From Oscillatoriales cyanobacterium PMM_0019 (GTDB lineage Bacteria > Cyanobacteriota > Cyanobacteriia > Cyanobacteriales > CASBRB01): DNA of 49,435 bases. Positions 8,902 to 49,030 of this stretch are shown piece by piece. Each line of letters begins with the position of its first letter. Within the stretch, counting starts at the first letter, position 1. The stretch is taken from contig CASBRB010000229.1 of the NCBI GenBank assembly GCA_949127975.1, positions 1 to 49,435 of the forward strand. The letters are read 5' to 3'. The notes under the pieces are model-generated. The model was not told the origin of the DNA, made no database searches, and worked only from the letters and a program-made list of their open reading frames with translations. Position numbers and translations under genes: made by a program.

Positions 8902-9104
8902 TCTAACTTCAACGCATTGACTGGGACTTGATCCCAAGAATTAACAGTCCGCAAGCTAGCTACCCAGCCCTGTTCTTTTTGCTTATCGGACAAATTCTGC
9001 TGAAAAGATTCGTGGCAATCCTTTGCTAATTCCTCATCGCAAGAGGCAATACAAGAATATAGAAGTCCAGAAGGATCGATCTGTTCGTTTACCCAAATAA
9101 TCAT
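8898..9104 (-). CDS. conserved cyanobacterial small hypothetical protein
   Basis: A 68-residue acidic protein of unknown function with a Cys pair (YSCIASCDEE) and no membrane segment. Its ATG overlaps the stop of the acetyltransferase fragment by four bases (ATGA), which shows it was translated as the second gene of that operon. Since the upstream gene is interrupted by an insertion, expression of this protein may now depend on a promoter within the insertion element. Its stop codon overlaps the end of the channel gene on the other strand. Confidence 0.65.
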   Translation of the reverse strand: MIIWVNEQIDPSGLLYSCIASCDEELAKDCHESFQQNLSDKQKEQGWVASLRTVNSWDQVPVNALKLD

Positions 9105-9520
9105 TTTTTTTCACTGGTAAGGCGGCAGATGCGCCAATCCTCTAAAATTACAGCTCCCATGCTTTCATAAAAAGTGCGAGCAGGCTGATTCCAATCCAAA
9201 ACGCTCCACTCTAAGCGCCCACAACCCCGCGCCACAGCTAATTTTGATAAGTGGCTAAATAAAGCCTTACCTATTCCCTGACGTTGGTATTCTGGCAAAA
9301 CAAATATATCTTCTAGATAAATACCTGGCTTAGTGAGAAAGGTGGAATATTTATAAAAAAAGACGGCGAATCCAACTACTTGCCCCTCATACTCTCCCAC
9401 AATAGCCTCTGCATAAGGTCGATTGCCAAACAGATGTTCCTTGAGGGCTTCAGGATTACCAGTCACAGCATGGGAGAGTTTTTCGTACTCTGCCAATGCC
9501 TGAATTAATTGAATTGACAC
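9101..9520 (-). pseudogene. GNAT N-acetyltransferase, C-terminal part (interrupted by insertion)
   Basis: About 137 residues of a GNAT-family acetyltransferase resembling diamine/spermidine-type enzymes. The acetyl-CoA loop LPEYQRQGIGKALF and the conserved C-terminal WNQPARTFYESMGA are intact. The fragment begins at IQLIQALAEYEKL, which in complete relatives follows an RPAxxEDxPxI strand-helix. That missing piece is found beyond the TnpB element at 10923-10976. A GTG at 9520 could start a truncated 139-residue protein, but it would lack the first strand of the fold and probably not be functional. Confidence 0.85.
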
Positions 9521-32674: not shown

Positions 32675-35600
32675 ATGGTAATCACACAATCTGACTTAGA
32701 ACAAATTATTGCCCAAGCTAGCTTTATATCAGAACGTCTCTCCACATCTTTTTCAAAACTTAAAAACGATGAGGCGTTCAAAATTGATACCACCGCAGTT
32801 AGTCAACAGCAAGTTAGCGACGAGCGACTAGCCCGCTGGTGTCACGTAGTTGCCCAAGGAAACTGGGAAAAATTTCACAAGCGGCTACAATGGGATGGGT
32901 TAGATATCGACACAGTACGCCCGATACTAGGCTCTTACTCTTTTGAGTATACTGGAGAAGCCCAGGAAATGCCAACCTGGGGGGAAACTTTGAGGGAGAT
33001 TATTCAATCTGCCACGGAATTAGACTTGCAGGATAAAACAAACATCCCCCGTGAACCGGAAAATCCGGTGCCGTTTGAAGATGTGTTGTTGCCTGCTGTA
33101 TTAGTGGCACGGCAGAAATTACTAACTGCATTGGATTCTCCTTCATTATCCCCAGACAGCTTACCCTTGGCATTGCTGACGGAAGCAGCCTACAAAAAAT
33201 TAGAACACAGCCTGCTAGAAAGGCTAGTGCAAATCTGCGGGAAAACTTTAGACTTTGAATTTACTCATTCGCGTCCCCTGGGGCACAACTTGCTCAGTCT
33301 GCTGATAGGAGAAACCCAAGAAAATAGCACAGATGGATACAACGCCTTTGTTGATAAATTATTACAGGATGGGCTATTGACATTTTTCCAGAAATACCCA
33401 GTGCTGGGCAGGTTAATGGCAACTGCTATTGACTTGTGGGTAGAAGTAACAGCGGAATTGTTGCAACGTATCCAGGCTGATTTATCCGAAATTCAGCAAA
33501 TATTCAGTCAACAGTCAACAATCAACAAAGTTACTGAAATCAAAACTTCTTTATCAGATCCCCATAATCGAGGGCGTTCTGTAACTATACTAACATTCGA
33601 TTCTGGGTTAAAGCTCGTCTACAAACCTAAGAATATCGGGTTAGAAGTTGCCTATAACCAGTTTTTAGAATGGTGCAATCAGCAAATAAACAATTCTCCC
33701 CCTCTTTTCTTCAAAATAATCAAGATAATCAATCGGGAAACTTACGGCTGGGTGGAATATGTAGAGCATCTGCCCTGTGAAGATGAAGCAGCAGCAGAGC
33801 GCTTCTATCAGCGGGCGGGAAAGTTGTTGTGCCTGCTGTATTTTTTGAGAACAACTGACTGTCACCGTGAAAATTTAATAGCTAGTGGTGAACATCTGGT
33901 GTTAATTGATATGGAAACCCTGATGCACCATGAAGCTAATTCATTTGGCAACCCCCTAGGAGAGACAACCACCCAGACGGTTTTGACTCAACAGCTCTAC
34001 AATTCAGTTTTGCGTACAGGAATCTTGCCCAGTTGGGAGATTAATCGAGATAACGAAGTTGCTTACGATATTAGTGGCTTAGGCAGCGTCGAGGCACAGC
34101 AAACACCCAGACGTAGTTGGCGCTGGAAATCAATCAATACAGATGATATGCGACTGAGTTACGATAATTTTACAGTACCATTAGAAAAAAATAGTCCAAT
34201 TTTGAATGGAGTACCCCTGTCACCTAATGACTACCTTGACAGTATAGTCGCAGGGTTTAAGCAGATGTACCACTTCCTGCTAGAGCAGCGACAAACGCTG
34301 CTAGCAGAAGATTCACCATTGGCAGCATTCTCAGCACAGCGCGTGAGGTTTGTTTTCCGCCCTACTAAAATTTACTTTTTGGTTTTAAACAAATCTTTTG
34401 CCCCTGAATTTCTTAAAAATGGGGTAGACTGGAGCATAGAACTAGAAGCTATGAGTCGGGCTTTTCTCACACCCCCACATAAACCTTATAATTGGTCAGT
34501 ATGTGGCAGCGAACTCAGCGCCATGCAGCAGTTGGATATTCCCTACTTTGCAGCATCCTCTGACAGCGATGTTCTCAGCTATGGGGTGATGTCACCTATT
34601 GAACATTTTTTTAAAAAACCCAGCTACAGCCAAGTCATAACCCAGCTAGCATCTCTCGATGAAACAGATTTAGCTCGACAAGTTGCCTTGATTCAGGGGG
34701 CTTTTTATGCTAGAGTAGCGCGGCAACCTGGAAGTATTACAGAATCGGATACCGAGAGTACGACGCTCGAAGAAGCTGATTTTTCCCAAGTCTGTGCTTT
34801 AACTGTTGAACAATTGCTTGGGCAAGCTAGTCAGATTGCCCAAGATATTCAGGCACGGGCGATTAAAGAAACCGATGGCAGTGTAAACTGGATTGGCTTA
34901 AGTTATATTCCCAAGGTCGAGCGGTTCCAACTCATGCCCTTGGGCGATAACTTCTATGATGGTAGTTGTGGGATTGCCTTATTTCTGGCAGCTTTGGATT
35001 ATGTAAAGGGCAACAGCGAATTCCGGCACCTAGCTTTAGGAGCAATACATTCCTTACGTCAATTCTTACAGAAAGCTAAACCTGAAGACCTGCAAGAATT
35101 TGCTCAAGTGGGAATTGGTGGAGCTGCGGGACTTGGTTCTATAATATATTGTCTAGTGAAGATGAGTCAATTCCTTCAGGAAACAGAGCTTTTAGCAGAC
35201 GCCCAGAAATTTGCCAACTTAATTACTCCCGAACTGATAGCCAGCGATAAGGACTTGGACATAGTCAAGGGAGCAGCAGGAGCAATCTTGGGGCTATTGG
35301 CACTTTATAATGAAACCAAGGATGGGGCAGTTTTAGATAAAGCGGTAATCTGCGGACAGCATCTGGTGGAGCATCAAATGAGTAGTGAAGATGGTATTGG
35401 AGCGTGGAAAACCTTTGCCCAAAAGCCATTAACAGGTTTTTCTCATGGAGCCGCTGGCATTGCCTACTCCTTGCTAAGACTATATAAAGTAACACAACAA
35501 GACGCCTTTTTAAAAGTAGCGAGTGAAGGAATTGCTTACGAGCGTAGTGTATTTGAGCCCAGTGTCGCTAATTGGCCAAATTTTATAGTGTCTGGCGATT

Positions 35601-36031
35601 CTGAAAATGTAACCCCAGGTTTTATGGTGAGCTGGTGTCATGGCGCACCTGGGATTGGCTTAGGGAGGCTGGGCGGTTTATCTATATTAGATACTGATGA
35701 AATTCGTCAAGACATAGAAGCAGCATTACTGACTACAAAGAATTACAACTGGCAAGGTGTAGCTCATCTGTGCTGCGGGCAATTTGGCAGAATAGAAATG
35801 CTGCTGGTGGCTGCTCAGAAGCTTCAGCGGAAAGAATTGCGAGACATCGCTCAACTAAGGGCTGCTTGGGTGATAGCCAACGCTTCAAAAACAGGAGCAT
35901 TCAAACTATTTCTTAACTTGCCATCAGAAGTATTCATCCCCTGTTTCTTTCAGGGAAATGCAGGCATTGGCTACGAGTTGCTGCGGTTAGCGAAGCCAGA
36001 GGTACTACCCTCAGTGCTATTATGGGAATAA
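32675..36031 (+). CDS. class II lanthipeptide synthetase (LanM), CCG type
   Basis: A 1118-residue bifunctional enzyme that dehydrates Ser/Thr in a precursor peptide and joins them to Cys as thioethers. The dehydratase domain (about 180-710) has KLVYKPKNIGLEVAYNQF (near 313-330), TDCHREN at 394-400 and the ID-M-E strand with D412 and E414. The LanC-like cyclase (about 760-1118) has GFSHGAAGIAY, C988-H989-G and C1033-C1034-G. The last motif supplies two adjacent Cys zinc ligands (CCG) in place of the usual CHG, a feature of ProcM-like synthetases with relaxed substrate choice. All catalytic parts look intact. The precursor is probably the gene at 38185. Confidence 0.95.
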   Translation: MVITQSDLEQIIAQASFISERLSTSFSKLKNDEAFKIDTTAVSQQQVSDERLARWCHVVAQGNWEKFHKRLQWDGLDIDTVRPILGSYSFEYTGEAQEMPTWGETLREIIQSATELDLQDKTNIPREPENPVPFEDVLLPAVLVARQKLLTALDSPSLSPDSLPLALLTEAAYKKLEHSLLERLVQICGKTLDFEFTHSRPLGHNLLSLLIGETQENSTDGYNAFVDKLLQDGLLTFFQKYPVLGRLMATAIDLWVEVTAELLQRIQADLSEIQQIFSQQSTINKVTEIKTSLSDPHNRGRSVTILTFDSGLKLVYKPKNIGLEVAYNQFLEWCNQQINNSPPLFFKIIKIINRETYGWVEYVEHLPCEDEAAAERFYQRAGKLLCLLYFLRTTDCHRENLIASGEHLVLIDMETLMHHEANSFGNPLGETTTQTVLTQQLYNSVLRTGILPSWEINRDNEVAYDISGLGSVEAQQTPRRSWRWKSINTDDMRLSYDNFTVPLEKNSPILNGVPLSPNDYLDSIVAGFKQMYHFLLEQRQTLLAEDSPLAAFSAQRVRFVFRPTKIYFLVLNKSFAPEFLKNGVDWSIELEAMSRAFLTPPHKPYNWSVCGSELSAMQQLDIPYFAASSDSDVLSYGVMSPIEHFFKKPSYSQVITQLASLDETDLARQVALIQGAFYARVARQPGSITESDTESTTLEEADFSQVCALTVEQLLGQASQIAQDIQARAIKETDGSVNWIGLSYIPKVERFQLMPLGDNFYDGSCGIALFLAALDYVKGNSEFRHLALGAIHSLRQFLQKAKPEDLQEFAQVGIGGAAGLGSIIYCLVKMSQFLQETELLADAQKFANLITPELIASDKDLDIVKGAAGAILGLLALYNETKDGAVLDKAVICGQHLVEHQMSSEDGIGAWKTFAQKPLTGFSHGAAGIAYSLLRLYKVTQQDAFLKVASEGIAYERSVFEPSVANWPNFIVSGDSENVTPGFMVSWCHGAPGIGLGRLGGLSILDTDEIRQDIEAALLTTKNYNWQGVAHLCCGQFGRIEMLLVAAQKLQRKELRDIAQLRAAWVIANASKTGAFKLFLNLPSEVFIPCFFQGNAGIGYELLRLAKPEVLPSVLLWE

Positions 36032-36066
36032 CTGACGATTAAGAATCGGGAACGGGGAACAGATTT

Positions 36067-36267
36067 CTCGTTCCCAGGATGTGCCTGGGAATGCTGTGTG
36101 GAGGCAGACTTACGCGCACTGGGCACGCACAGGGGGTTTGCCCCTACTCACCCGCTATATATAGAGGCAGTAGTTGTAGTTGTAGTAGGTTGGGTAGAGC
36201 GATCGCGAAACCCAACATAAACCCACAGGGGTGATGTTGGGTTTCGTTCCTCAACCCAACCTACAAA
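36067..36267. repeat. families D, A and B in series
   Basis: A D palindrome (tctcgttcccaggatgtgcc tggga), a family A piece with a truncated gacttacgcgcactg end, and a family B palindrome (tgtagtaggttgggtagagc ... caacccaacctacaa). Together they fill the gap between LanM and the DUF2993 gene. Confidence 0.75.
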
Positions 36268-36325
36268 TATAGCAACCGCCTTGGCGGTTGCTTACAATTG
36301 AATAAGTAGAACGGACAAAAATAGT

Positions 36326-37030
36326 GTGACACCAGAAAAAGTCAAGTTTGGACAACAGGTAGTCAATAAATTCATTGAGATGATCTTGGCGAGGATGATC
36401 GATGCTGAACTATGCCAAGTCCGCGTCAGAGCCAATCTCAAGCAATTAGCTCGTGGCGAACTCGATGGGCTGACTATCGAAATGTATGGTTTTAGGCTGC
36501 GTCAACACTTGCGAGTTACAGAATTTCGGTTCGATATTGGGGAAGCGGCGGTTAACATTCAAAGCATCATGCGCCGACAAATCGAACTACTGCATCCCTC
36601 AGAAGGCACTTTGCTCTTGGTGGTTACTCAAGAGCAGTTAACCAGTGTACTAAACTCCCTGAATGTATCTCCATCAGACGAACATCTTGAGCCAAAGAAG
36701 AGGCAGGTCAACTGTCAGCTAGGGGAAGATGGCGCAATGGTATTCCACTTTGAATGGATATATGCTGGAGAAATTGCATCTGGAAGTTGCACCGTCATAC
36801 CGCTTCTTAAAGCAGATGGTTCTGGAGTTGTGCTGAACCAAGGAAATAGGTCGGGCAAGGAACCACCTGACGAATTTGTTAGAGCAGTAAGCACCCAAGT
36901 AAGCGACATCTTGAGCCTAAGTGACATTGCTAATCTTGGGACAACTTTTCACTTTGAAAAGATTGATATCACAGCAGGTAAGATAACGGTACGAGCCACT
37001 ACCCATATCGAGCATTTTCCCAAAGTTTAA
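36326..37030 (+). CDS. DUF2993 family protein
   Basis: A 234-residue protein starting at GTG 36326. The pattern ARMIDAELCQVRVRANLKQLARGELDGLTIEMYGF..LRVTEFRF is typical of the DUF2993 (LmeA-like) family common in cyanobacteria, whose members are thought to bind lipids at the membrane or cell wall. There is no signal peptide at this start. It sits between the synthetase and the precursor peptide gene in the same direction, but the repeats between them argue against a single operon. A role in peptide maturation is not supported by sequence. Confidence 0.78.
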   Translation: MTPEKVKFGQQVVNKFIEMILARMIDAELCQVRVRANLKQLARGELDGLTIEMYGFRLRQHLRVTEFRFDIGEAAVNIQSIMRRQIELLHPSEGTLLLVVTQEQLTSVLNSLNVSPSDEHLEPKKRQVNCQLGEDGAMVFHFEWIYAGEIASGSCTVIPLLKADGSGVVLNQGNRSGKEPPDEFVRAVSTQVSDILSLSDIANLGTTFHFEKIDITAGKITVRATTHIEHFPKV

Positions 37031-37076
37031 TCTAACAAAGAATTGGCTCTTTGGTACTTGTTATGCTAGAGCAACA

Positions 37077-37123
37077 GTTGATGGGTCGGGAACAGGGAAC
37101 AGGGAACAGGGAACGAGAAAATG
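37077..37123. repeat. short tandem repeat gggaaca
   Basis: gatgggtcgggaacagggaa cagggaacagggaacgaga contains four direct copies of gggaaca/g. Slippage-type repeat without coding function. Confidence 0.7.
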
Positions 37124-37176
37124 GTTTGATTTCAGGCGTAGGAATTTTCAACCCTGACAGGCCGATAAGATTGTGT

Positions 37177-37228
37177 AGTCCTCTTGAGCGAGGACTTTAG
37201 CTATTAGCCTCTGGTTTAAACCAGAGGC
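37177..37228. repeat. structured palindrome pair related to 17010-17058
   Basis: Two hairpins, agtcctc/gaggact (37177-37196) and gcctctggtt/aaccagaggc (37207-37228), in the order and spacing of the first two hairpins at 17010-17058 but in the opposite orientation. Stem changes relative to that copy are compensated on both arms. Confidence 0.65.
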
Positions 37229-37282
37229 GGGCTGTCGGATAATTTTTACCCCTATTATATTTTAAAAAATTTTCACCATCTG

Positions 37283-37390
37283 ATGTTGGGTTTCGTTCCT
37301 CAACCCAACCTACAACTACAACTGGCTCTATATATAGCGGGTTCGTAGGGGCAAACCCCCTGTGGTTGCCCCTATATATGCCAGTATGCT
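37283..37390. repeat. family B and family A repeats
   Basis: A family B palindrome (gttgggtttcgttcctcaac, ccaacctaca) followed by a family A unit (tatatatagcgggttcgtag, gggcaaaccccctgtggttg, cccctatatatgcc). The rest of 37031-38184 holds no gene; a ctccccttctcccttgatgg/gagaagggg palindrome is at about 37457-37482 and a D-type palindrome at 37650-37740. The 380 bases directly before the precursor gene are AT-rich and free of repeats. Confidence 0.75.
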
Positions 37391-38184
37391 ACAGTACTGT
37401 TTAAAAAAAATCACCATCTGGGAGAGGGGAGTAAGAGTCGGAATTTCTTCTATTTCTCCCCTTCTCCCTTGATGGGAGAAGGGGTTGGGGGATGAGGGTG
37501 ATAACTTAGGTCTGGCGTACAATATGTTTAAGATACTTGATGAACGAGTCCCGATCGATCATTACTTTTGTGCTAATATTATTAAATTTCTATTACATTT
37601 TAGCATACTAAGTACGAAAGACCCGGATTGTCTGAGCGCGGCTGGGCAGTTTTCTCGTTCCGGTGGCTCTGCCTGGGAATGCTGTTTGTCGGCAGAGCCG
37701 ACAAGCCTTCGTTCCGGTGGCTCCTGCCTGGGAACGAGAAGAAAGGTTACGAAGTCATAAAGATGCCAAAGGATTCGATATTACTGGCTTTCCTCTATCT
37801 TAATAGATAAATCATAAGGCATAGTTAGAATAGAATTACACTTTTCAATCACCCTTCAACGATTTTAAAGAGAGCTATCTCTTGAGCCTGTACTTAAAAC
37901 TGATATAACCGTAAAACCTACCCTTAATAACAGGATAACAGAAATTGTTCTCAGTATTTACACGTATCAACATAGTATAATTACGTAGATTTAACTCCTT
38001 TTACTGGTTGATAAGTGGGGTATATACATAGATATTAATACACTTATCAAAAGTTTGATGCTAGTGGCTGTGGATGCTAAATAATCAAAAAAATCTTTAA
38101 AATTCAGTAGTTTCTCCAATGACGTTTTAAAAATAAACGGTGAAGATAAATATAGAGACAAGAAAAAAATTAAGGATTAAGCAA

Positions 38185-38529
38185 ATGTTCGGCCAAAAGA
38201 ATTGGAACCAATTTCTACAAATATTACAACAAGACCGCCAAGCTCAAGACAGTCTGAAGAAAGCGACAGACCAAGAAGGCTTTGTGAATCTGGCAGTTCA
38301 ACTGGGTAAACAAAAAGGCTTCAATTTCACCAGCAAAGATTTGAAAGCAATGCTTGCTCAAGCTCTAGCTCCAATCTCTGAAGAGCTTAGTGACGATGAA
38401 TTAGCGTGCGTGGCAGGAGGAGGAGACAACGACGACAAACCAAAAAATACACATAAGAACTGTGGCGTTGGTGGAACGTGCTATAATCATACATGTTGTG
38501 TTACTGGTGACCAGGCATATACTCTTTAG
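38185..38529 (+). CDS. Nif11-leader lanthipeptide precursor
   Basis: A 114-residue precursor started at ATG 38185 with an aagga site eight bases before it; a GTG at 38140 could add 15 residues. Residues 1-60 (QKNWNQFLQILQQDRQAQDS to FTSKDLKAML) match the Nif11-type leader fold. The leader ends with ISEELSDDELACVAGGG, the typical double-glycine cleavage region. The predicted core (from about 80 or 81 to 114) has five Thr (89, 98, 103, 107, 113), no Ser, and four Cys (93, 99, 104, 105). That permits up to four (methyl)lanthionine rings or two rings plus a disulfide. The nearest modifying enzyme is the LanM at 32675-36031. Confidence 0.9.
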   Translation: MFGQKNWNQFLQILQQDRQAQDSLKKATDQEGFVNLAVQLGKQKGFNFTSKDLKAMLAQALAPISEELSDDELACVAGGGDNDDKPKNTHKNCGVGGTCYNHTCCVTGDQAYTL

Positions 38530-38642
38530 GGGTATAAATCTTGGCAGTTTTCACCATCATTGAAATTACAATGACTGGGCAAATAATTGACTTAACTTCA
38601 GATTTTGGATGTTAGATTGTGATGAATTTTACAGCGAATTAA

Positions 38643-38662
38643 CCCCTGGATTTATCCAGGGG
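38643..38662 (+). terminator. hairpin between precursor and protease genes
   Basis: Perfect arms cccctgga and tccagggg with a four-base loop, about 110 bases after the precursor stop. The following sequence (ctagtaagaacaaaatcg) lacks a U-tract, so it could be a partial terminator or an mRNA-stabilising stem that sets different levels for the precursor and the protease. Confidence 0.5.
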
Positions 38663-38757
38663 CTAGTAAGAACAAAATCGACTTTTTAAAAACTGTCAAT
38701 TTTAAATTTGAAATCAAAGCTTTGGTGGTATATATTGATAGGGAGCATGTGTTAGAG

Positions 38758-40044
38758 ATGAAAAATATTAAATCAGCGATCGCTATCCTTAGCGCCCTCA
38801 CACTTAATCTTGTGACTCTCCAAAGTACCACAGCACAATCGGCTGCTAAAAGATACATAGTGGTTTTCAAAGAAAACCCTGTCACTGATGTTGATTCTGT
38901 GGTTCAGGAACACACTAGGCTTTATGCTTTGCCTGAGGTTACTCATACTTATAAACGTGTTTTGAAAGGATATGCGGCTCTCCTGCCAGACGCTCTCGTG
39001 ACAATGCTTAAAAACGATCCGAGGGTTGACTTTATTTCTCCAGACTATCCCGTTAAAGCTGTGGGACAGACACTACCAGAAGGTGTACAGCGGATTGGAG
39101 GAAATCTCAGTAGTGGCAAGTCTGGAAGCGGCCAGGGTTCTGTTAATACACCTATAGCGATAATTGATTCAGGGATTCAAGTTAACCATCCCGACCTCAA
39201 TGTAGTTGGGGGTCATAACTGTGTAGGTAAGGGAACAAGCTATAATGATGGTTACGGTCATGGCACTCATGTAGCTGGCACCGCAGCCGCTAAGGATAAC
39301 ACCATTGGCGTTGTTGGGGTAGCACCTGGTGCGCCACTGTACGCAGTTCGAGTTTTAGACAACACAGGAAATGGAAGTTGGTCTAATCTTATTTGCGGTG
39401 TGGATTGGGTGACAACTAACAGCGCTAGCACCGGAATCAAAGTTGCCAATATGAGTCTGGGTGGAGTTAACTCCTCTGATGATGGCAATTGCGGTAATAC
39501 CAACAAGGACGCGCTACACCAAGCTATATGTAAGTCTGTGGCTGCTGGCATTACTTATGTAGCTGCTGCTGGAAACAATTCTCAGGACTTTTCTAATTTT
39601 ACACCCGCAGCATATAGCGAAGTTCTCACCGTAACAGCAATGGCTGATTTTAATGGTAAACCAGGAGGTGGTGCAGCTTCCACCTGTGGGAGCGATACCA
39701 CTGATGCGGATGATTTTGCTGCTTCATTCAGCAATTTCGCTACTATTGGCACCAGTAATGTCAATCACACCATTGCCGCACCAGGTGCATGTATCGAATC
39801 TACTTGGCTCAGTGGTGGCTATCTTAGCATTTCCGGTACGAGCATGGCTTCACCCCACGTAGCTGGAACGGTGGCTGTGTGCATTGCTTCTAGTAAGTGT
39901 GCAGGTAAGACACCGCAACAAATCATCAGTAAACTACGGAGCGATGCCGCTGCACAACCGATAACTTACGGTTTTCAGGGCGATCCGAACTCACCTATCG
40001 GCACCCATTACTATGGTCCTCTGGTGTATACAGGGAATTACTAG
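38758..40044 (+). CDS. secreted subtilisin-like serine protease (S8)
   Basis: A 428-residue protease when started at ATG 38758 (MKNIKSAIAILSALTLN), which gives a normal signal peptide; GTG 38722 adds 12 unlikely residues. An inhibitor I9-type propeptide (YIVVFKENPVTDVDSVVQEH to YPVKAV) precedes the S8 domain. The triad is D137 (AIIDSGI), H168 (YGHGTHVAG) and S362 (GTSMASPHVAG), and the oxyanion Asn is in AAGNNSQ. The enzyme is intact and extracellular or periplasmic. Its position right after the lanthipeptide precursor suggests a leader-removing (LanP-like) role, but a general protease next to it by chance cannot be excluded. Confidence 0.9.
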   Translation: MKNIKSAIAILSALTLNLVTLQSTTAQSAAKRYIVVFKENPVTDVDSVVQEHTRLYALPEVTHTYKRVLKGYAALLPDALVTMLKNDPRVDFISPDYPVKAVGQTLPEGVQRIGGNLSSGKSGSGQGSVNTPIAIIDSGIQVNHPDLNVVGGHNCVGKGTSYNDGYGHGTHVAGTAAAKDNTIGVVGVAPGAPLYAVRVLDNTGNGSWSNLICGVDWVTTNSASTGIKVANMSLGGVNSSDDGNCGNTNKDALHQAICKSVAAGITYVAAAGNNSQDFSNFTPAAYSEVLTVTAMADFNGKPGGGAASTCGSDTTDADDFAASFSNFATIGTSNVNHTIAAPGACIESTWLSGGYLSISGTSMASPHVAGTVAVCIASSKCAGKTPQQIISKLRSDAAAQPITYGFQGDPNSPIGTHYYGPLVYTGNY

Positions 40045-40481: not shown

Positions 40482-42860
40482 ATGAAAAATTATCTGAAAT
40501 TTCTTCAGCCCCACCGTCACTTTAGGTTAGTTTCTCCTTCAGCTTTGTCACCAATGCAAACTTTAGCCCAAACCTTATCTTTATTTGTTTTAAGTTTTTC
40601 AAGTTTACTTTTTACTTCTACAGCACAAGCCAATCCTATCCAGGCAGATACTACCCTGCGGATTCCTTCGGCGGTATCGTGCGTGGCTAATAGCTGCATT
40701 ATCAATGGTGGAACACTACGAGGAAGCAACCTGCTCCACAGCTTTACCCAGTTTTCTGTACCTACAGGTGGTGTAGCTCAGTTTAACAACGATCCAGGGG
40801 TGGTAAATATCTTCAGCCGGATTACCGGAACATCGATTTCCAATATAGATGGTTTGCTGAAAACTAACGGCACCGCTAATTTGTTTTTGCTCAATCCCAA
40901 CGGAATTGTTTTTGGTCCAAATGCCCAACTAAGCATAAACGGTTCTTTCCTTGCCAGTACAGCCAGTGGGATTCAGTTTGCTGATGGGAGTTTTTTTAGT
41001 ACCACCCCACCATCCACACCCCTGCTCACAGTAAGTGTGCCAGTAGGTTTACAGTTTGGCTCTACCCCCGGTAAAATCGTGGTGCAGAGCCAAGGCAACC
41101 AAGGCGATGGCTTGATCGTACCACCAAATCAAACCTTAGCTTTGGTGGGTGGCGATATCTCAGTAGAGGGAGGAATACTGCAAACAGCAGGGGGAAGAAT
41201 TGAATTAGGGAGTGTGGGCAGCCAGAGTTTAGTCAGCCTCACCCCGATAGCTAAAGGATGGGCATTGGGATATAATGGTGTTTCTGTTTTCCAAAATATT
41301 CAACTTTCCGGTAGTACAGCTTACGTTAATGCCAGTGGTGCAGGTGGTGGGGATATCCAGGTTCAGGGAAAAACTGTCAGCCTTACCAGTGGTGCCCAAA
41401 TTGAAGCTTCGACTTTGGGTTCGCAACCGGGAGGAACTTTAATAGTTAACGCAACTGACGCGGTGGAAGTGACGGGAAAAATCTCAGATCCCCCAAGCGG
41501 CTTTTTTACTGAAGTTTACCCACCAGGCAGTGGTGCAGGCGGCAAGTTGACTATTTCGACTCAGCGGTTGTTGTTGGATGGAGCCGCATTAATAGACGCT
41601 TCTGCGTTTCCTAACTCCATAGGTAAGGCTGGCGACGTGACTATTAACACGGGTAGTTTAATTGTTCGCAATGGGGCACAGCTAGACGCGGCAAGCATTG
41701 GTGGCAAAGGAGCAGGGGGAAATATCAACATTAACGCCACTGACTTGGTGCAGTTGAGTGGTGCTAACTCTAACGGCATCCGCAGTGCTTTGTTTACTGT
41801 GACTACGGGTAATGCGCCTGCTGGCGACTTGAGGATTAACACCAGTCGGTTGATTATCGAGAATGGGGCACGGGCATCAACTTCGACTCGGCTTGCCGGG
41901 AATGGGGGAACTTTAACCGTAAATGCCAACTCGGTGGAATTGAGTGGCGTCTCGCCCAATGGTAAAAACCCCAGTGGCTTATTTGCCCTCTCTGGGGAGT
42001 TGGGTACTGGCACCGATCCAAAAAAAGCTTCTGGAGCGGGGGGTTCCTTGATGATTAATACAGGACAACTGATTGTCACAAATGGGGCACAGGTATCAGC
42101 CAGCGCTCTAGGCACGGGCACGGCAGGCAATTTGAACATCACTGCTCAGTCAGTTAATTTGGACAATGCAGGCAGCATCCGAGCAGAAACCCAAGTAGGA
42201 ACTGGCGGTAACATTAACCTGCAAGCACAAAATTATCAAATGCGCCACAACAGCAACTTAACTACCAGTGCCAGCCAAGCGGCAACAGGCGGCAACATCA
42301 CCCTCAATACCAATACATTATTAGCTTTAGAAAATAGTAATATCACAGCCAATGCCGTCCGAGGTAGAGGTGGAAATATCAACATTACCACCCAAGGCGT
42401 CTTTCTTTCCCCAAATAGTTCTATTACTGCTAGTTCTGACTTGGGAGTTAATGGTGTTGTGCAAGTGCAAATTCTAGGGTTTGACGTCACCAATACCCTA
42501 ACGCCATTTAGGGGTAATTTCGTCAGTACGGAGCAAGTTGTGGCTGGCAGTTGTCTGGCAAATCGTAATCGACAGCAGGGTACCTTTGTCGTTACAGGTA
42601 CGGGAGGTTTAGTACCTACTCCTTACGATCCCATCAGCGGTCGATATAATGTGGTTACATTGCAGCCTCTCAGAGATGGGCTTTCTCGTCCGGGATCTTG
42701 GAAACCTGGGAATACTTCTCCCTCTGCTCGTTGGAAAATAGGCGATCCGATCGTGGAAGCGCAAAGCATTGTGGTTACTCCAGATGGACGCACTTTGTTG
42801 GCAGCATCGTCTGCAAAAGGAATGACTGAATCATCAAATATGGTCTGCCATCCCAGCTAA
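40482..42860 (+). CDS. filamentous-haemagglutinin-type exoprotein (TpsA-like)
   Basis: A 792-residue exported protein. A signal sequence ends near ALA-type FTSTAQANPIQ (about 45-52). The haemagglutination-activity domain follows (about 52-165; GGTLRGSNLLHSFTQFSVP, NIFSRITGTSISNIDG, NLFLLNPNGIVFG), then Gly/Thr/Asn-rich parallel beta-helix repeats with GG-x-[IL]-x-[IV]-N patterns to about 690. The proline-rich end lacks a membrane anchor. Such proteins usually need a TpsB/Omp85 pore to reach the surface; no TpsB is in the window. It may be an adhesin or S-layer-like surface protein. Confidence 0.9.
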   Translation: MKNYLKFLQPHRHFRLVSPSALSPMQTLAQTLSLFVLSFSSLLFTSTAQANPIQADTTLRIPSAVSCVANSCIINGGTLRGSNLLHSFTQFSVPTGGVAQFNNDPGVVNIFSRITGTSISNIDGLLKTNGTANLFLLNPNGIVFGPNAQLSINGSFLASTASGIQFADGSFFSTTPPSTPLLTVSVPVGLQFGSTPGKIVVQSQGNQGDGLIVPPNQTLALVGGDISVEGGILQTAGGRIELGSVGSQSLVSLTPIAKGWALGYNGVSVFQNIQLSGSTAYVNASGAGGGDIQVQGKTVSLTSGAQIEASTLGSQPGGTLIVNATDAVEVTGKISDPPSGFFTEVYPPGSGAGGKLTISTQRLLLDGAALIDASAFPNSIGKAGDVTINTGSLIVRNGAQLDAASIGGKGAGGNININATDLVQLSGANSNGIRSALFTVTTGNAPAGDLRINTSRLIIENGARASTSTRLAGNGGTLTVNANSVELSGVSPNGKNPSGLFALSGELGTGTDPKKASGAGGSLMINTGQLIVTNGAQVSASALGTGTAGNLNITAQSVNLDNAGSIRAETQVGTGGNINLQAQNYQMRHNSNLTTSASQAATGGNITLNTNTLLALENSNITANAVRGRGGNINITTQGVFLSPNSSITASSDLGVNGVVQVQILGFDVTNTLTPFRGNFVSTEQVVAGSCLANRNRQQGTFVVTGTGGLVPTPYDPISGRYNVVTLQPLRDGLSRPGSWKPGNTSPSARWKIGDPIVEAQSIVVTPDGRTLLAASSAKGMTESSNMVCHPS

Positions 42861-47356: not shown

Positions 47357-47377
47357 AGGATCTAAAATCTAAAATTG

Positions 47378-49030
47378 ATGAGCAATGCCTTGTTGAATGT
47401 AGAAAATTTGCGAGTGTCTTATCCTAGCAGTCGATCGGGGGCGGCAGCTCCACCCCAAAGTTGGGCTGTGGATGACGTTTCTTTCATCCTCCAACCCGGA
47501 GAAAAATTAGGCTTAGTCGGAGAATCTGGTTGCGGCAAGTCAACCCTGGGGCGGGCAGTAATGCGGTTGTTGTCGAAAGAAACGCGACTTGAAGGGCGGG
47601 TGACTTTTGAGGAGCGATCGGTTTTTGAGATGACACCTTCTCAATTACGGCGATTTCGAGGAGAAGCAGTAGCACTGGTGTTTCAAGATCCGATGACGCG
47701 CCTCGATCCCCTAATGCCCATAGGGGAACACTGTCTGGAAACCCTCAAAGCTCATCAACCACAACTGTCTAGGCGTCAAGCGAAAGAACAGGCTCTAGCT
47801 ACCCTGGAAGCAGTGAAAATACCTGCGAACCGATGGTCCCAGTATCCCCATGAGTTTAGTGGCGGGATGCGACAACGGGTAGCGATCGCTCTTGCCCTAC
47901 TCCTTAACCCAAAACTGATCGTAGCGGATGAACCCACTACTAGCTTAGATGTTACTGTCGCCGCTTCTATTTTAAAGGAACTAACGCGCTTGTGCCGCGA
48001 TCAAAACATGGCCCTAGTGTTAATTTCTCATGATTTGGCCCTGGTGGGGGAGTATTGCGATCGCCTTGCTGTTATGTATGAAGGCAAAATCGTGGAAACT
48101 GGTTCAGTCGGTCCCATTTTTGGGCAGCCACAGCATGAATATACCCGATCGCTCCTCAAAGCAGCTCTGCACATTAAATCAGATTCGGGGGTGAAGCAGG
48201 TAAAATCTGGCAGCCTGGGGGCAGAAACAATTCTTCGGCTCACTTCTTTGAAGCAGTATTATACCTTAGAAAGTAATTTTTTGCAGCAGATTTTTTCTAA
48301 AGAAGGCAAAAAAACGATTAAAGCTGTAGATGGGATTAATCTGGAACTCGAACGCGGTGAGATTCTCGGACTTGTAGGAGAATCAGGCTGCGGCAAGAGT
48401 ACCCTATCAAGAACAATTTTGCAGTTGATTCGCCCGACAAGTGGAACAGTAGAATTTCTGGGACAGGATTTAACCAAGCTGTCTCGCCAGTCCATCCGAG
48501 GGTGGAGGCGGAAAATGCAAATGGTGTTTCAAGATCCCCATGCTTGTCTCAATCCACTGATGACTGTAGGCCAAAGTATTGCCGATCCCTTGTTCATTCA
48601 CAAGCTAGCTACCCCAGAAGCAGCGAAAATTCAGGTGATGGAGATGCTAGAGCGGGTGGGGCTTACTCCCGTGGAGGAATATTATCAACGGTATCCAGCA
48701 GACTTGTCTGGGGGGCAACAGCAACGGGTGGCTCTAGCACGAGCCTTGATTACTCATCCGGAATTACTGATCTGTGATGAGCCGGTGAGTATGCTGGATG
48801 CTAGCGTGCAGGCGCAGGTGTTAGATTTGATGTTGGAGTTAAAGCGGGAATTTAATCTCACGTACTTGTTTATCACTCATGACTTGTGGGTGGCGAAGTT
48901 TTTGTGCGATCGCATTGCCGTCATGAATGCTGGTCAAATTGTGGAACTCGGTCCCACCCAGGATATTTTTACCAATCCCCAACACCCCTATACTCAAACT
49001 CTACTGAGTGCTGCTCCTTTACTAGGATAG
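47378..49030 (+). CDS. ABC transporter, fused DppD/DppF-type ATPases
   Basis: A 550-residue protein starting at ATG 47378 (TTG 47375 is one codon before). It consists of two ABC ATPase domains in tandem, each with Walker [10 protein letters not shown] (about 49-57 and 337-345), signature ([13 protein letters not shown] and [13 protein letters not shown]), Walker B ([12 protein letters not shown] and [12 protein letters not shown]) and a Dpp/Opp C-terminal extension ([15 protein letters not shown] and [18 protein letters not shown]). Such fusions energise import of peptides, or nickel or other small molecules, by the Dpp/Opp class. Permease and binding-protein genes are not in the window. The ATPase pair looks fully active. 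Confidence 0.93.

Follow-up and report, generated by a model that had tools for sequence, protein, structure and literature searches.

A probable class II lanthipeptide locus with a CCG-type LanM and a Nif11-leader precursor in an Oscillatoriales cyanobacterium

We describe a cyanobacterial locus that probably makes one class II lanthipeptide, by means of a LanM synthetase, a Nif11-leader precursor encoded downstream of it and an exporter encoded elsewhere in the genome. The system is probably functional and of a kind already known. It lies in the window, the 49,435-nucleotide stretch analysed here, which is one whole contig of a 96%-complete draft genome (5.74 Mb in 512 contigs). Among the genomes searched, the source genome alone represents its family; with the assembly broken into 512 contigs, the picture of gene linkage and the tally of precursors are incomplete.

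LanM and its Nif11-leader precursor

The synthetase gene (32675–36031, plus strand) encodes 1118 residues and matches the curated LanM model TIGR03897 with 1027.9 bits (cut-off 304); a DUF4135 dehydratase domain (PF13575, 465 bits) is joined to a C-terminal LanC-like cyclase domain (PF05147, LANC_like, 204 bits). We aligned it with CHG enzymes and with the LanM of genome G605, which we take to be ProcM (the genome being presumably that of Prochlorococcus MIT9313), and also with CylM and LicM2. All ten dehydratase residues are kept (K317, D295, H297, D395, H397, N400, D412, E414, R562 and T564, reading KDHDHNDERT), and the cyclase has its three zinc ligands, C988 as the first, then C1033 and C1034, followed by Gly in the motif HLCCG. 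Domains and catalytic residues are those of a class II synthetase, and the enzyme groups with the CCG-type LanMs, in which Cys-Cys-Gly replaces Cys-His-Gly. Residues and family match thus confirm a sequence-only reading of this DNA, which had described a full-length LanM with adjacent cysteines at exactly 1033 and 1034 and Gly after them.

In a tree of 104 LanMs, built by a quick method with SH-aLRT and without bootstrap, the window LanM falls on the CCG side, and the CHG enzymes lie across a starred branch from it. Its sister (SH-aLRT 99) is the only other LanM of its own genome, also of CCG type and 60% identical (contig C498, 10605–13979); a CHG partner LanM was not found in the genome. The presumed ProcM and six picocyanobacterial kin form a separate clade, outside which the window LanM stands at 30% identity to the presumed ProcM. 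The earlier assignment to the ProcM group therefore holds for the CCG side, apart from CHG enzymes, and fails if that group is drawn narrowly. The same reading had ascribed to ProcM-group enzymes the acceptance of many substrates, which agrees with passages of two papers, and ring placement of low selectivity, which does not: those passages describe wide substrate tolerance, yet cyclization of each substrate with high fidelity (PMC10306099; PMC10027976). We do not carry 'low selectivity' forward, since ring placement by ProcM is described there as faithful.

The candidate substrate (38185–38529, plus strand; 114 residues) is a Nif11-leader (N11P) precursor, a family described together with the NHLP precursors (PMC2887384). 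It exceeds the cut-offs of TIGR03798 (38.7 bits against 32.3) and Nif11 (29.3 bits against 23.8), and its ATG start is preceded, about 8 nt upstream, by AAGGA, read directly. The leader, residues 1–79, ends in the double-Gly motif VAGG and has hydrophobic residues at −4 (V), −7 (L) and −12 (L), the pattern read by PCAT peptidases (PMC10885120). The core, residues 80–114 (35 residues, GDNDDKPKNTHKNCGVGGTCYNHTCCVTGDQAYTL), has four Cys, five Thr and no Ser. A Nif11-like leader with a double-Gly end and a variable core define the N11P family; dehydration and cyclization of the window core are predicted. The double-Gly leader and Cys/Thr-rich core had been recognized from the letters and are confirmed. 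The leader score is nevertheless modest (29–39 bits), which counts against our explanation.

Two Nif11 proteins over the curated cut-off occur in the genome, the window precursor and a short protein on contig C291 that has no double-Gly motif or Cys core. The window precursor is therefore the only core-bearing one over cut-off in the 5.74 Mb draft. A lax genome search with it as query gave nothing convincing past these two, and tblastn with relatives' precursors as queries gave only short, chance-level matches in the window and on contigs C498, C278 and C300. Further Nif11 peptides had been suggested to occur elsewhere in the genome; the one other that passes the cut-off is the coreless C291 protein. 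By our own arithmetic, the chance of such a precursor falling within 2.2 kb of one of two LanMs is about 0.3%. The proximity thus goes beyond chance, as this is the sole core-bearing precursor in 5.74 Mb with two LanMs, and as the pairing recurs in relatives.

To compare relatives we searched 391 genomes of the order, finding a LanM match (E ≤ 1e-50) in 107, and examined neighbourhoods with flanks for 40 other LanM loci; a contig scan with LanM alone had given one locus, in Fischerella sp. PCC 9431, and the broader genome search was used for comparison. About half of the LanM loci examined have Nif11 precursors within the flank, and precursor-like matches occur in 30 of the 107 LanM-bearing genomes versus 18 of the 284 without a LanM match. 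Over 60 relatives, mean identity to the window precursor is 0.31 in the leader and 0.08 in the core; a conserved leader with a variable core is the usual N11P pattern. We also grouped LanMs by the zinc ligands seen in the alignment: beside three-Cys enzymes, Cys is present in 40 of 44 cores, and beside ligand-less enzymes in 2 of 25, these counts being genes rather than independent events. The window pair, a three-Cys enzyme and a four-Cys core, fits this rule and gains support from it. The arrangement itself speaks against our explanation: the precursor lies 2,153 nt downstream of LanM, separated from it by repeats and a further gene, whereas relatives' precursors are mostly directly upstream of LanM, some being downstream (L069 and, by coordinates, in genomes G155 and G106). 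Overall, the pairing of LanM and precursor is well supported, and the proposal of a class II locus with a CCG-type LanM and a Nif11 precursor is upheld by family matches, tree and recurring pair.

One relative's locus (L068, 4887–15932) carries both a CHG and a CCG LanM with four Nif11 precursors. It also encodes a short-leader double-Gly peptide (8926–9153) whose core CTYICCVT resembles the TCCVT of the window core.

Exporter, proposed pathway and intervening gene

The window encodes no exporter of the LanT type, as had been noted; its other ABC ATPase (47375–49030) is an OppDF-like import ATPase. A distant exporter had been suggested, and the genome does have one: among its four C39-peptidase genes is a tandem NHLM ABC1/ABC2-type pair on contig C300 (L014, 9792–12029 and 7120–9837, minus strand), with 1149 bits against TIGR03796 (cut-off 853) and 981 bits against TIGR03797 (cut-off 709). 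A C39-peptidase ABC protein and a partner ABC protein, each over its curated cut-off, constitute an NHLM-type exporter, the type named by NCBI's models for Nif11/nitrile-hydratase-leader peptides. Many of the relatives' LanM loci have ABC exporters of NHLM or HlyB type nearby, and close homologues of the C300 pair, or of one of its genes, lie about 8 kb or less from LanM at L055, L059, L062, L067, L069 and L184. The C300 pair is the most likely exporter of the window lanthipeptide.

We infer from the sequences that these parts act together, that they are expressed and that the product may have a biological activity. LanM would bind the Nif11-type leader, then phosphorylate core Thr and eliminate the phosphate; Thr would be the dehydration targets because the core has no Ser. 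At the three-Cys zinc site, dehydrobutyrines would be joined to the four Cys of the core, so that as many as four methyllanthionine rings could form. A C39-peptidase ABC exporter, most likely the C300 pair, would cut after VAGG and export the peptide. For the C498 LanM, the substrate may be this precursor too, or another that fell into a gap of the assembly.

Between LanM and precursor lies an LmeA-like gene (36326–37030, plus strand; PF11209, formerly DUF2993, 51 bits), in keeping with the earlier remark that repeats and a DUF2993 gene fill a gap of about 2.1 kb. We considered it as a part of the system and rejected it, as none of the 40 relatives' LanM loci has it; it probably stands outside the lanthipeptide system. 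Inverted copies of a dispersed 60-nt repeat bracket the gene (36121–36180 and 37312–37371), and a further repeat pair lies around it (36232–36269 and 37281–37318). These dispersed repeats (GATGTTGGGTTTCGTTCCTCAACCCAACCTACA and neighbours), partly inverted where they flank the gene, have further copies at several window sites and on other contigs. The inverted repeats suggest an insertion or rearrangement in the LanM–precursor gap. The number of promoter- and terminator-like sites in the intergenic stretches is close to chance expectation, and we gave these sites no weight. A second copy of the whole locus was also sought and rejected: contig C278 has no LanM, Nif11 or LmeA gene, and the surroundings of the C498 LanM resemble the window in dispersed repeats only.

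The subtilase and alternative readings

A secreted subtilase is encoded on the same strand, some 230 nt beyond the precursor gene (38758–40044, plus strand). It starts at ATG 38758 and encodes a signal-like N-terminus, an I9 propeptide (PF05922, 35 bits) and an S8 domain (PF00082, 133 bits) with all three triad motifs intact (IIDSG, GHGTH and GTSMASP), so that the secreted subtilisin noticed directly after the precursor is indeed there. It has the make-up of a LanP, a secreted S8 pro-enzyme, and lacks the conserved linkage to lanM and lanA: no counterpart was found within the fetched flanks at any of the 40 relatives' LanM loci. Orthologues (61–63% identity) occur in three other genomes of the 245 searched (E ≤ 1e-40); these three have no LanM match, and no LanM or Nif11 gene lies within the fetched flank. 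A paralogue in its own genome (61%, contig C278) has chemotaxis-type and sulfotransferase-like genes as neighbours and no RiPP gene among them. On this distribution we rejected the protease as a dedicated part of the system. Because it is absent at the 40 LanM loci and its orthologues are in genomes without LanM, we read the protease as probably a bystander; of the proposal that all three genes act together, the LanM–precursor half is supported and the inclusion of the protease is not.

Two side observations concern this region. In the C278 paralogue (L192, 3733–5394) the C-terminal part contains a long inserted stretch of Pro-Ser repeats. Directly after the window subtilase gene is a two-partner-secretion exoprotein gene (40482–42860; TPS domain, 202 bits); TPS genes also lie near relatives' LanM loci L053, L054, L056 and L065, perhaps only through being common in these genomes.

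A bystander has to be weighed against two-step maturation. Here cleavage at VAGG by the distant exporter would leave the acidic stretch GDNDDK(PK) on the peptide, to be removed outside the cell by the neighbouring subtilase as a recruited LanP. Hexapeptides are removed in a second step by CylA (GDVQAE) and LicP (NDVNPE), and from mersacidin (GDMEAA) (PMC10885120). The core start GDNDDK resembles these post-double-Gly hexapeptides, strongly acidic core starts are rare among relatives' cores, and the gene encodes a secreted pro-enzyme on the same strand close behind the precursor. We nevertheless regard this route as unlikely, given the absence of the protease at all 40 loci, the three orthologues in genomes without LanM, the setting of the paralogue and the best solved matches, which are ordinary extracellular subtilisins (LicP being outside that comparison). 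An extended version, in which a distant NHLM exporter and a newly recruited subtilase trimming GDNDDK are combined with two CCG LanMs that set different ring patterns on one precursor, seems to us very doubtful.

It is also conceivable that this LanM modifies a substrate other than the window Nif11 protein, encoded elsewhere and bearing another type of leader (NHLP, for example); the precursor would then be a relic or serve the C498 LanM. The unusual spacing with a gene intervening, the presence of two LanMs for one precursor and the related loci L061, L064, L070 and L051, in whose fetched flanks no Nif11 precursor was found, would agree with this. Yet the sole core-bearing precursor over cut-off adjoins one of the two LanMs, clade mates of the window LanM adjoin Nif11 precursors, and the core contains Cys, as a three-Cys enzyme would lead one to expect; we hold a separate substrate to be quite unlikely. 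A combinatorial system of the prochlorosin kind, with many substrates dispersed over the genome, would suit a CCG-type enzyme, and in G268 and other relatives several Nif11 precursors do lie on different contigs. We consider it highly improbable here, as the enzyme lies outside the ProcM clade and the same search gave 38 Nif11-leader matches in G605 against one core-bearing precursor in the present genome, where two Nif11 genes over cut-off, one of them coreless, and two LanMs occur in a 96%-complete draft. With 30% identity, a separate clade and one core-bearing precursor, 'prochlorosin-like' proves a loose label. The reading we prefer remains one lanthipeptide made by the window LanM from the window precursor.

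Zinc-less relatives, significance and known systems

Next to the CCG group, 11 LanMs form a starred clade in which the zinc ligands are gone (ACW, AAW, TCW and similar motifs) and all dehydratase residues are kept (L094, 5926–12771; L095, 5413–8811 with flanks; L152, L166, L147, L158, L159, L161, L180, L093 and L096). Nearly all of the Nif11 peptides found beside them as precursors lack Cys, and many have KIKW or PKW at the C-terminus; six such peptides follow one another at L094 (9791–12771), with cupin/JmjC-like and MBL-fold-like genes, judged by eye, near them. These features suggest that the clade consists of dehydratase-only LanMs making dehydrated, non-lanthionine peptides. Our literature search found no paper plainly about dehydratase-only, zinc-less LanMs with Cys-free cores, and this group looks more novel than the window locus. 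On the CHG side, too, zinc ligands are lost or altered (S-C-N, S-C-S and the like) in L084–L087, L089, L100 and L080, with dehydratase residues mostly kept. L084 bears a CCG label in the tree through a GWCCG elsewhere in its tail, whereas its aligned ligands are S-C-N; the placement of the window LanM is unaffected.

With this locus come a probable new lanthipeptide core (KNTHKNCGVGGTCYNHTCCVTG) and a pair of CCG LanMs, in a lineage whose family has no second genome among those searched. The locus also shows that a CCG zinc site need not mean a prochlorosin-like substrate pool. The tracking of core Cys with zinc ligands both supports the window pairing and points to the zinc-less LanMs with Cys-free substrates.

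Among known systems, CCG-motif LanMs with N11P precursors have been described at loci of Synechocystis sp. PCC 7509 and Chamaesiphon minutus (PMC10027976). Like such loci of larger cyanobacteria, the present one has a CCG-type LanM, a Nif11 double-Gly leader and a variable Cys/Thr core, with C39 ABC exporters in the genome. Unlike them, it has a single precursor, downstream and 2.15 kb off, its exporter is unlinked, and two CCG LanMs lie on different contigs with no CHG partner found. With the prochlorosin system (ProcM/ProcA, Prochlorococcus MIT9313) it shares the three-Cys zinc site, the Nif11 leader and the possibility of substrates unlinked from the enzyme, whereas its one precursor, against about 30 there, gives no sign of substrate expansion. 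Cytolysin and lichenicidin (LanM, LanT and S8 LanP) resemble it in their class II LanM, in a secreted S8 gene next to the precursor and in the acidic stretch after the double Gly; they differ in that their LanPs are dedicated, whereas the S8 protease here is unlinked to lanthipeptide genes in any relative examined, and the leader here is of Nif11 type.
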